The notes beneath the pieces are model-generated. The model ran no database searches and was not told where the DNA came from. It was given only the letters and a program-made list of their open reading frames with translations. The translations under genes and the position numbers were made by a program. Source: an uncultured Bacilli bacterium (GTDB taxonomy: Bacteria > Bacillota_I > Bacilli_A > RF39 > UBA660). From it: a stretch of DNA of 56,396 nt. Below, in pieces: positions 42,302-45,131 of this stretch (positions are counted from its first letter, which is position 1; every line of letters begins with the position of its first letter). The stretch covers positions 1 to 56,396 of the forward strand of contig CANRAF010000006.1 in the NCBI GenBank assembly GCA_947628535.1. Direction: 5' to 3'.

Positions 42302-42327
42302 AAGAAAAAGACCTAATTTTTAGGTCT
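42302..42327 (-). terminator. Terminator of the spoVA operon
   Basis: On the minus strand AGACCTAA...TTAGGTCT with TTTTTC, overlapping the last codons of spoVAEB. Confidence 0.8.
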
Positions 42328-42663
42328 AAAAATTAATGCAATAAAGAAACTTATAACTATAGCAGCAGTTATTCCTGTAGCTGTTAAATCAAACATTCCC
42401 ATAGCAAGTCCAAAAAATCCAGATTCCTGTGCTCTATCTAAAGCAGCATGAATTAGTGAATGTCCAAAACTTGTAATTGGTACAAGGGCACCACCACCAA
42501 CACATGAAACTATTTTATCATATATATCAAATATATCTAGAAACGCTCCTAAAGAGACAAAAATACTTGTGATATGTCCTGCTGAAAGTTTAGTGTTATC
42601 AATAATAATCTGAGCTATTAAACAAAGAAATCCACAAAATAGAAATGATAGAACATACATCAT
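42313..42663 (-). CDS. spoVAEB: Stage V sporulation protein AEB (SpoVAE)
   Basis: This 116-residue membrane protein has 3-4 hydrophobic segments. It begins YVLSFLFCGFLCLIAQIIID and contains GGGALVPITSFGHSLIHAAL and the FFGLAMGMFDLTATGITAAI end, the SpoVAC/SpoVAEB fold. It is part of the inner-membrane channel that imports dipicolinic acid into the forespore and releases it at germination. The start overlaps the spoVAD stop in an ATGA; either of two tandem ATGs may be used. Confidence 0.93.
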   Translation of the reverse strand: MMYVLSFLFCGFLCLIAQIIIDNTKLSAGHITSIFVSLGAFLDIFDIYDKIVSCVGGGALVPITSFGHSLIHAALDRAQESGFFGLAMGMFDLTATGITAAIVISFFIALIFRPKN

Positions 42664-43649
42664 TTTACCACCTCCATACTTACAGCATGAGCAATTCCTA
42701 AAATGTTTTGTTTTTGAAATACAAATGTAGGAGAAAACAAAGCACCAGTTGTTACAAATAATACTCTTTTAAAATTTTTCTTTTTTAAATTATCTAGTAC
42801 ATATCCATAATTTACTAAGCAGCTACATACTGGCCCTGATCCTCCTGCAGTAATTTCTTTTTCGTTTTCCATATCATAAAGCATAGCACCACAATCATTA
42901 TAATTTTCTAAAGTTATACCAAATTTCTTTTTCATATAGTCTTTTAATATTTCTCTTCCAAATATTCCTAAATCTCCTGTTAGTATAAGGTCATAATAAT
43001 CAGGAGTAACATTTAGACTAGTTAAATGATTATAAATTGTATCCGCAGCTGCAGGAGCCATTACTGCTCCCATATTGTTAGGATCAGTTTGATTTAAATC
43101 TACTATCTTACCAATGGTATAATCTGTTACTTTAATATCTGTTTTTTCTTTTGTAAGTAAAATTGCAGCTCCACCTGTTGATGTAAAAGTAGCAGTTTTT
43201 GGTTTAGTATAACCATATTCTGTTGGATTTCTAAATTGTTTTTCTTCTGCTAAATTATGAGAACTTGTAAGGCATATTGCAGTTTTTAAATCACTACTTT
43301 CTAAAACAGATGAAGCGACTATAATACTTTCCATACTTGTAGCACAGGCACTAAAAACTCCAAGATATGGCGCATTATAATTTTTTACAGCATAACTTGT
43401 AGCACAAATTTGATTAAGTAAATCTCCTCCCACTAAAAGTTCTATATCATCTTTTTTTAATTTTGTTTTTCTAAGTAAAATATCAACAGCATCTTTTCCC
43501 AGTTTTACTTCAGAAAGTTCAAGTGATTCATCAATATTATAACTATCATAACTTTTATCAAAATATTTACCAAATGGGCCCTCTTTTTCTAATTTACCTG
43601 CAACTAAAGCTGCATTTTTTACATATATATTATTTAATTTATTAGTCAT
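42660..43649 (-). CDS. spoVAD: Stage V sporulation protein AD
   Basis: This 329-residue protein of the thiolase fold has no expected thiolase catalysis in this role. In Bacillus SpoVAD binds dipicolinic acid directly on the outer face of the inner spore membrane. Visible blocks are VAGKLEKEGPFGKYFD, FSACATSMESIIVAS, TGGAAILLT, GDLGIFGREIL and NYNDCGAMLYD. GGAGG lies 5 bases before the ATG. It is the middle gene of spoVAC-D-E. Confidence 0.95.
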   Translation of the reverse strand: MTNKLNNIYVKNAALVAGKLEKEGPFGKYFDKSYDSYNIDESLELSEVKLGKDAVDILLRKTKLKKDDIELLVGGDLLNQICATSYAVKNYNAPYLGVFSACATSMESIIVASSVLESSDLKTAICLTSSHNLAEEKQFRNPTEYGYTKPKTATFTSTGGAAILLTKEKTDIKVTDYTIGKIVDLNQTDPNNMGAVMAPAAADTIYNHLTSLNVTPDYYDLILTGDLGIFGREILKDYMKKKFGITLENYNDCGAMLYDMENEKEITAGGSGPVCSCLVNYGYVLDNLKKKNFKRVLFVTTGALFSPTFVFQKQNILGIAHAVSMEVVK

Positions 43650-43650
43650 A

Positions 43651-44091
43651 TTAACCTCCAAAGAACAAGTATCTAATTAACCCAAAAACATAGGCCGATA
43701 CTACTCCATAAAGTATTACTGATCCTGCAAGTTTAAACATATTAGCGCCAAATCCATATACAGGGCCTTCCTTCTTATAATCCAAAATAGCACTTTGCAT
43801 TGAATGAGCAAATCCAGTTATAGGGATAATAAAACCCATTTTTCCTTTTTTTACTAAAAGATCAAATACTCCAAGTCCTGTCAAAAGACAAGCTATAAAA
43901 ATTAAAGTAACTATCATACAAACACCTGCTTCTGTTGTTGATATATGAAAAAAATACGTGTATAAATCTACTAATAAATTACCAATAAGACCAATTATTC
44001 CACCCACAATGAAAGCAATAATCATATTACTTATTCTATTTTCTTTAGGTTTATGCTTATCAACAATTTCTTGATACTTTTTATCTCTCAT
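43651..44091 (-). CDS. spoVAC: Stage V sporulation protein AC
   Basis: This 146-residue membrane protein has a basic N-terminus and four hydrophobic segments. IIAFIVGGIIGLIGNLLVDLY, GFIIPITGFAHSMQSAILDYKKEGPVYGFGANMFKLAGSVILYG (read as overlapping blocks) and an FGLIRYLFFGG end match SpoVAC, a mechanosensitive part of the dipicolinate channel. AGGAGG precedes the ATG. The SpoVAA and SpoVAB proteins of Bacillus are missing, giving the minimal C-D-E core seen in many Clostridia and Bacilli. Confidence 0.95.
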   Translation of the reverse strand: MRDKKYQEIVDKHKPKENRISNMIIAFIVGGIIGLIGNLLVDLYTYFFHISTTEAGVCMIVTLIFIACLLTGLGVFDLLVKKGKMGFIIPITGFAHSMQSAILDYKKEGPVYGFGANMFKLAGSVILYGVVSAYVFGLIRYLFFGG

Positions 44092-44136: not shown

Positions 44137-44163
44137 AAAAAAACAAGACTACATAAGTCTTGT
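44137..44163 (-). terminator. Terminator of spoIIAA-sigF
   Basis: On the minus strand ACAAGACT, a 5-base loop and AGTCTTGT are followed by TTTTTTT. It overlaps the sigF stop, separating sigF from spoVA transcription. Confidence 0.85.
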
Positions 44164-44799
44164 TCTAAGTCTTGTAAGAATTTGTTTTTCTTCTCTAGAT
44201 ACTTTAACCTGATTAACACCTAAACTTTTAGACACTTCACTTTGAGTTAAGCCTTCACCATACCTTTTATTTATTAAATCCTTTTCATAATCACTTAAAC
44301 TTTCAAGTGCAATTTTTAAATCAAGAAGTTCTTCACGATAACTTTTCTCAGTATATCCAATACTATCATACATTTTCTGCTCTTCTTCATTTTCACTATC
44401 CAAACTTGCTACCAAACTACTAGCAATTTTAGCATCTTCAATATTTTTAACATCCATTTCTAAAAACAAAGCAATATCATCATCTGATGGAACATATCCA
44501 AGTTTTTGAGTCAAATAATCTTTTGCTCTTTCTATAGATGTATTTAATTTAATAAGATCCTTGCTTACTTTTAATACATTTGATTTTCTAATATATTCTA
44601 AAACCTTACCTTTTACATAGAAATATGCAAATGAAGAAAACTTAGTATTTTTATCAGATTTATAGTTATCATAAGCATCCATAAGTCCTATCATTCCAAC
44701 TTGATATAAATCATCTTTATCAAAATAATAAGTATATTTATTAATAATTGAATAAACTATATTTTCATTTTCTAACAAAACCTCTTCTCTATCTTTCAT
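44149..44799 (-). CDS. sigF: RNA polymerase sporulation sigma factor SigF
   Basis: This 216-residue sigma-70-family factor is the forespore-specific first sigma. Region 2.1-2.4: NENIVYSIINKYTYYF, DDLYQVGMIGLMDAYDNY, FSSFAYFYVKGKVLEYIRK. Region 3: LGYVPSDDDIALFLEM. Region 4: YEKDLINKRYGEGLTQSEVSKSLGVNQVKVSREEKQIL, with the helix-turn-helix near the end. The LGVNQVKVSR helix closely follows SigF/SigG. It is about 40 residues shorter than Bacillus SigF (255), mainly at the N-terminus before region 2. It starts in an ATGA overlap with spoIIAA and has no good ribosome site of its own. No spoIIAB lies between, so the usual anti-sigma control is not encoded here. Confidence 0.85.
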   Translation of the reverse strand: MKDREEVLLENENIVYSIINKYTYYFDKDDLYQVGMIGLMDAYDNYKSDKNTKFSSFAYFYVKGKVLEYIRKSNVLKVSKDLIKLNTSIERAKDYLTQKLGYVPSDDDIALFLEMDVKNIEDAKIASSLVASLDSENEEEQKMYDSIGYTEKSYREELLDLKIALESLSDYEKDLINKRYGEGLTQSEVSKSLGVNQVKVSREEKQILTRLRTRLM

Positions 44800-45131
44800 A
44801 TATTAACTATCTCATAAGCTGTTATTTCTTCATTTACTTGATATAAATGTTCTGTTAAAAAATGATTTTCTGAAAATAGTTTATCTATACCACATATTAT
44901 TAATTTTCCCCTATTATTAACTACTTCTTTATAACTACTTTTAATAGCCTCCAGGCCATACCTATCGATAAAACTTAATTTTTTTAAGTTTAGTAAAACA
45001 TATCTTATCCCATTATTTTTGATAACCATATCTAAGTCTTTTTTTAATAGATTATAAGTATCTCCATTAAGAATTCCTTTAAGTCTTACAATAAGTATTC
45101 CTTGTTTAAATTCCATGTCTATGTCTAACAT
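44796..45131 (-). CDS. spoIIAA: Anti-sigma F factor antagonist SpoIIAA, lacking the phospho-serine
   Basis: This 111-residue STAS protein begins MLDIDMEFKQGILIVRLKG and contains VLLNLKKLSFIDRYGLEAI. In Bacillus the same stretch is LSFMDSSGLG, with Ser58 the site phosphorylated by SpoIIAB. Here position 58 is Tyr and 57 is Arg, so the normal phospho-switch cannot work. The ATG at 45131 (AAGGAG 8 bases upstream) gives the family-like length of 111; an upstream in-frame start adds 11 poorly conserved residues. A possible sigma-H-like promoter is at 45187-45212. Next gene is sigF, overlapping by 4 bases; spoIIAB, normally between, is absent. Confidence 0.85.
   Translation of the reverse strand: MLDIDMEFKQGILIVRLKGILNGDTYNLLKKDLDMVIKNNGIRYVLLNLKKLSFIDRYGLEAIKSSYKEVVNNRGKLIICGIDKLFSENHFLTEHLYQVNEEITAYEIVNI

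Follow-up and report, generated by a model that had tools for sequence, protein, structure and literature searches.

Sigma-F, the first spore-specific switch protein, is normally controlled by a brake, SpoIIAB, and a release enzyme, SpoIIE. How is it controlled in an organism whose spoIIA operon holds spoIIAA and sigF but not spoIIAB? The question is raised by a 56,396-nucleotide stretch of DNA from an uncultured Bacilli bacterium (GenBank assembly GCA_947628535.1, contig CANRAF010000006.1), referred to here as the window. A preliminary description, made from the letters alone, proposed that the kinase gene and its target residue on SpoIIAA had been lost together, and that sigma-F is either controlled by other means or handled by a SpoIIAA working directly or together with a new partner. 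The survey of Galperin et al. 2012 (PMC3533761) lists spoIIAA, spoIIAB, sigF and spoIIE for every spore-forming member of the bacilli and clostridia; even Arthromitus, for all its streamlining, has retained them.

The spoIIAA gene of the window lies directly with sigF in an operon of the spoIIA-spoVA type, and the location of spoVAC, spoVAD and spoVAE downstream of sigF identifies this as the true spoIIA-spoVA neighbourhood (Table 1). The 4-base overlap of spoIIAA with sigF, described at the outset as leaving no space for spoIIAB, was confirmed, and no spoIIAB reading frame was found between or beside the two genes at this locus. Later spore genes had been described as intact, which holds for the spoVA genes of the window and, genome-wide, for Spo0A, SpoIIR and SigG. 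A sequencing or assembly error was considered and excluded, since the arrangement recurs in congeners and in more than 100 other genera; the same spoIIAA-sigF order is found across the family described below, including Candidatus Coprosoma intestinipullorum (L167).

Table 1 Features of the spoIIA-spoVA locus, in window coordinates
Feature	Position	Strand	Remarks
spoVAE (AEB type)	42313..42663	-	TIGR02839 128 bits
spoVAD	42660..43661	-	PF07451 E 2e-116
spoVAC	43651..44091	-	TIGR02838 159 bits
sigF orthologue	44149..44799	-	216 aa, strongly diverged; SigBFG 141 bits, TIGR02885 120 bits
ATGA overlap, spoIIAA stop / sigF start	44796..44799	-	without spoIIAB
spoIIAA orthologue	44796..45131	-	111 aa STAS protein; motif D56-R57-Y58-G59 replaces D57-S58-S59-G60
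Alternative spoIIAA start, upstream ATG	45164	-	122 aa product
0A-box-like site TGTCGAC, upstream of spoIIAA	45210..45216		1 mismatch to TGTCGAA

The neighbourhood varies in detail between genomes. In one of them (G005; L227, G005:C28) metK lies between spoIIAA and sigF, with both genes still open. A large exported protein of unrecognised family (about 370-630 aa), whose N-terminal region is of the RYRFYEEE type, is encoded immediately before spoIIAA in 44 loci (for example L146, L135, L013, L011 and L010) and before sigF in 6 loci that lack spoIIAA; its gene is possibly a lineage-specific spore gene.

The preliminary description had left room for a kinase gene elsewhere in the genome. Searches of the window genome (933 kb in 20 contigs, 93.6% complete) for a SpoIIAB/RsbW-type kinase gave TIGR01925 and PF13581 matches only inside long frames of 352-465 aa, and PF07228, used for SpoIIE, gave no match; neither half of the partner-switch module, the SpoIIAB kinase/anti-sigma factor or the SpoIIE phosphatase, was found. 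We examined a family of 145 genomes from 144 genera, all draft or metagenome-assembled. The family most probably corresponds to the order RF39 of the Bacilli, as judged from named Bacilli/Tenericutes gut MAG loci and from a class and gene content agreeing with Field et al. 2024 (PMC10868615); Candidatus Coprosoma intestinipullorum has been assigned to this order (PMC8035907). The TIGR01925 and PF13581 searches revealed no genuine SpoIIAB in any of the 145 genomes, and while a completeness of about 93% makes single absences uncertain, 145 parallel absences are not. The PF13581 matches comprised two PP2C-HATPase fusions, sensor-kinase-like long frames and one short frame of 146 aa (G032), which was rejected as a SpoIIAB candidate as it forms the end of a histidine kinase that is split and lies next to a response regulator. 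The SpoIIE phosphatase domain was absent from 141 of the 145 genomes, and two of the four that have it owe it to the PP2C-HATPase fusions, which stand beside a separate STAS domain and away from sigF. In a sample of the class, SpoIIAB scored over its curated cut-off in 26 of 28 SpoIIR-positive Bacilli outside the family (the two exceptions are a genome of 55% completeness and a genome with a partial match) and in none of 16 SpoIIR-positive genomes inside it.

The two fusions (L272:1586-3780 in G148 and L273:261-3350 in G125) each combine membrane segments, a SpoIIE-type PP2C domain and an RsbW-like HATPase in one protein adjoining a STAS domain, which in G125 is fused to a kinase-like domain. 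This suggests a compact, one-protein partner switch.

In the accessible part of the RF39 sporulation gene survey of Field, Bowerman and Hugenholtz 2024 (PMC10868615), spoIIAB and spoIIE are tabulated as reduced or absent in RF39. Our results agree with this part of the survey, and add synteny and a count over the whole family. Ser58 of SpoIIAA, the decayed interaction surfaces, the promoter and the recurrent loss of spoIIAA go unmentioned in that part, and what we report beyond the table appears to be new.

The identity of the window SpoIIAA is supported by both sequence and fold. It matches the STAS family PF01740 with 56.7 bits, the profile of family SpoIIAA proteins finds the B. subtilis protein structure 1auz with an E value of 7.5e-22, and the AF2 model (pLDDT 88) has SpoIIAA entries 1thn/1th8 as its nearest PDB neighbours, with TM scores of 0.86-0.88. 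On the SpoIIAA equivalog model TIGR02886 it scores 53.3 bits, under the curated cut-off of 114.75. Profile alignment to 1auz and joint alignment both place its motif I-D56-R57-Y58-G59 against M-D57-S58-S59-G60 of B. subtilis. The preliminary description was right that this motif has no phosphorylatable serine (DRYG against DSSG) and mistaken in reading Tyr58 as the substitute for Ser58: the window protein begins one residue shorter, which shifts the numbering by one, and the Ser58 position is occupied by Arg57, while Tyr58 corresponds to Ser59. Neither Arg57 nor Tyr58 would serve as a normal SpoIIAB substrate. Four congeners have DNYG, DKYG, DHFG and DNYG at this place.

Across genomes, a residue other than serine at position 58 tracks the absence of SpoIIAB. 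Ser58 is present in all 22 SpoIIAA proteins encoded together with SpoIIAB (the canonical set) versus 13 of 143 family proteins, among which the other residues include Thr (5), Glu (24), Asn (20), Leu (14), Lys (12), Met (11) and Ile (10) and otherwise almost anything; Asp57 is retained in 120 of the 143. Relatives retaining Ser58, together with a spoIIAB gene elsewhere in the genome, would have spoken against joint loss as first described. No such gene was found, and the one relative with an intact DSSG also lacks SpoIIAB. This is the only family member with a full IDSSG in SpoIIAA (L248; G061:C7), an ancestral remnant or a reversion. The joint loss of kinase gene and target residue is thus supported for an entire family and not just for one genome, and with both of them gone sigma-F must be controlled otherwise.

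The decay extends beyond the phosphorylation site. Of the residues that the canonical set conserves, the family has lost E21, D23, H24, H25, F55, M56, S58, S59, G62, G66, R67, G95, F97, K98 and I99 (numbering +2), among others, while those of the STAS core (G20, N49, D57, G76, C81, E106 and A109) are kept. The SpoIIAB-binding face, with Glu21, Arg67 and others, is missing from the window protein; Glu21 opposes sigma-F at SpoIIAB (PMC7340262) and Arg67 is part of both the SpoIIAB and the SpoIIE interfaces (PMC11418112). Within the genus of the window, spoIIAA is nevertheless under purifying selection, with dN of 0.14-0.26, dS of 1.0-1.9 and dN/dS of about 0.1-0.2, similar to sigF (estimates by NG86 only, at dS near 1-2). 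The protein is thus genuine and has a use, yet it is not indispensable, as its repeated loss shows (see below). Second, stop-ridden SpoIIAA-like fragments, perhaps decayed paralogues, occur elsewhere in several genomes (G005:C43:43244-43498, G010:C30:16056, G155:C44:2456, G168:C5:28063 and G090:C7:9255).

The window sigma-F is a SigBFG-type factor with regions 2, 3 and 4, encoded upstream of spoVA. Its score on the SigF model TIGR02885 is far under the curated cut-off of 321 bits, and SigG of the same genome reaches 267 bits on that same model; the divergence is therefore specific to the sigF unit, which is far more diverged than its paralogue. SigG and Spo0A themselves score close to or over their curated cut-offs (SigG 369 bits on TIGR02850, cut-off 457, and 379 on NF006071, cut-off 372; Spo0A 290 bits, cut-off 200), and SpoIIR scores 140 bits against a cut-off of 152. 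The pair E149-D150 of sigma-F, which to judge from sigma-F mutants is probably contacted by SpoIIAB, is Lys-Asn in the window. A SpoIIAB-refractory sigma-G variant, E156K (PMC3174212), points to the same contact role. Position 149 is Glu in 19 of 22 canonical sigma-F proteins versus 39 of 143 in the family, and position 150 is Asp or Glu in 21 of 22 versus 21 of 143. Relaxation of sigma-F region 3 relative to regions 2 and 4 was not seen; all regions evolve faster.

sigF, SpoIIR and Spo0A persist across most of the family. Among the 145 family genomes, SpoIIR is found in 126, Spo0A_C in 134 and sigF in approximately 128, a count that includes four genomes (G094, G138, G146 and G166) whose best match could be SigG. 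sigF is missing altogether from 17 genomes, 16 of which also lack SpoIIR: the two genes are lost together. Two neighbouring Spo0A_C genes, apparent tandem spo0A duplicates, were seen in two genomes (G005:C31:6134-7336 and G032:C32:7111-8286). In the two genomes examined from the genus of the window, a gene for a soluble phosphatase, PP2C-like by motifs only, lies between prmC and spoIIR (L339:1206-2411, G000:C1; L340:1024-1917, G001:C8); upstream sequences suggest that in other genera prmC directly precedes spoIIR.

Upstream of the operon, 126 of 141 loci have the 0A box TGTCGAA no more than 250 bp before spoIIAA, versus 2.4 expected from shuffled sequences, and 28 of the 33 loci where spoIIAA is lost have it within 250 bp of sigF, versus 0.5 expected; in the canonical set it is found in 9 of 22. 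The family box has a single orientation and in most cases sits 55-66 bp ahead of the start codon. A second copy, weaker than the first, stands about 25 bp upstream of it, and 84 of 147 loci have a TATAAT-like -10 element beginning 34 bp downstream of the box. This layout is that of a predicted Spo0A-activated promoter. Compared with the family consensus, the genus of the window has a degenerate box in inverted orientation. The regions upstream of spoIIR look different: an 0A box is present in only 2 of 38, and the B. subtilis-type sigma-F promoter GYATA-N14-17-GGNNANA in none of 39. Enriched there instead is a -35-like element, TG[AT]ATAA, with a C-rich -10-like element after it (L295-L334), and its departure from the B. 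subtilis consensus may reflect an altered promoter specificity of sigma-F.

In the sigF tree, loci that carry SpoIIAB group together in a single clade (support 99). The distribution of spoIIAA within the family requires 20 changes, at least 10 of them on well supported branches, and spoIIAA has been lost at least 10 and up to 20 times with sigF kept; in some of these lineages the gene found upstream of spoIIAA in relatives now directly precedes sigF.

We consider it most probable, at roughly 0.6, that the partner switch was dismantled once and early, that the main gate on sigma-F is now its Spo0A-driven synthesis, and that SpoIIAA has become accessory. The SpoIIE-SpoIIAB-SpoIIAA switch would have been taken apart near the base of the RF39 family, with loss of SpoIIAB and SpoIIE. 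Freed from kinase and phosphatase, SpoIIAA would then have lost Ser58 and the remainder of its SpoIIAB-binding face, and sigma-F the acidic pair contacted by SpoIIAB, while its job and its link to SpoIIR were retained. The activity of sigma-F would be set mainly at synthesis, by Spo0A acting at the consensus 0A boxes immediately in front of spoIIAA-sigF, and SpoIIAA would persist as a folded STAS protein in an accessory role that many lineages could dispense with. The sequences themselves establish the losses and their nested distribution, the decay of the interfaces, the purifying selection and the conservation of the 0A boxes. This reading presumes that these organisms sporulate, which for RF39 is predicted, that control by Spo0A suffices, and that SpoIIAB has not been replaced by an unrelated anti-sigma-F. 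The spoIIA operon of Bacillus is likewise driven by Spo0A, so that conservation of the 0A boxes is no proof of transcription being the only gate; it also fails to account for the forespore specificity of sigma-F. A bolder version seems unlikely to us, if worth keeping in view: that the whole order sporulates with a sigma-F free of any anti-sigma switch, through Spo0A-driven synthesis alone or an unrecognised device, and that SpoIIAA is now a direct, dispensable modulator of sigma-F.

SpoIIAA might have changed sides, binding sigma-F or its holoenzyme directly, perhaps through a new N-terminal beta-hairpin (E-F-R/K-K-G-I-L-F), and tuning its activity. The purifying selection on spoIIAA and its tight gene coupling with sigF fit this idea, as do two hairpin residues conserved in the family and not in the canonical set, a Gly at window G11 (95%) and a Phe at the position of window I14 (86%). 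In independent-loss pairs, moreover, 7 of the top 11 sigma-F columns that lose consensus upon loss of spoIIAA fall in region 3, with 2.8 expected (hypergeometric p 0.007, post hoc), although column E90, tested singly on such pairs, was not significant (median p 0.25). Mean-field DCA on 143 pairs gave inter-protein signals no stronger than the SpoIIAA-SpoVAC or sigF-SpoVAC controls, and SpoIIAA and sigF showed no excess rate correlation. Because spoIIAA has been lost so often with sigF kept, and its co-evolution with sigF does not exceed that of control pairs, direct action or a new partner, as the preliminary description had offered, is disfavoured as the general mechanism; a direct role on sigma-F is possible, and as a full explanation we hold it to be improbable. 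Removal of SpoIIAB deregulates sigma-F in B. subtilis, so some restraint is to be expected. It could come from an unrelated or highly diverged anti-sigma-F encoded elsewhere, such as a GHKL kinase of the two-component type or a small protein, and SpoIIAA may or may not be its antagonist. GHKL histidine kinases are still present in family genomes, and an anti-sigma factor of an unrecognised family would escape the profile searches used, but no candidate is family-wide or syntenic with sigF. The PP2C-HATPase modules of G125 and G148, with their adjoining STAS domains, are rare, remote from sigF and Rsb-like in look, the B. subtilis anti-sigma-F Fin is over cut-off in none of the 145 genomes, and the surface of sigma-F for SpoIIAB has itself decayed. 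We judge such a replacement to be quite doubtful.

It is very improbable, in our view, that spoIIAA-sigF is a relic, decaying in lineages that have given up sporulation, and that the switch was lost without functional significance. The genomes are reduced, at about 1 Mb, spoIIAA has repeatedly disappeared and some genomes have no sigF, but sigF, SpoIIR and Spo0A are kept together across most of the 144 genera and their losses are concerted. The dN/dS ratios well below 1, the conservation of the 0A boxes and of their position, and the SigG and Spo0A scores near or above curated cut-offs all argue against a relic, and RF39 spore formation is predicted in the accessible part of Field et al. 2024 (PMC10868615).

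Set beside the SpoIIAA-SpoIIAB-sigma-F switch of Bacillus and Clostridia, the RF39 system shares an orthologous SpoIIAA and sigma-F, the spoIIA-spoVA neighbourhood, upstream Spo0A boxes and SpoIIR, but differs in the absence of SpoIIAB, SpoIIE and Ser58 and in the lost SpoIIAB face of SpoIIAA and acidic pair of sigma-F. With RsbV-RsbW-sigma-B and other STAS/GHKL switches it has in common the STAS fold of the antagonist, without a GHKL kinase partner or a phosphorylatable serine. The pattern of loss is that of a regulatory module dismantled in order, the kinase and phosphatase going before the phosphorylation site and docking face of the substrate, and these before the substrate gene. A large gut lineage with sigma-F, SpoIIR, SigG and Spo0A but without the switch amounts to a knock-out experiment performed by nature: sigma-F activity would either be attainable in compartment-specific form without the switch, or an unrecognised switch would exist.
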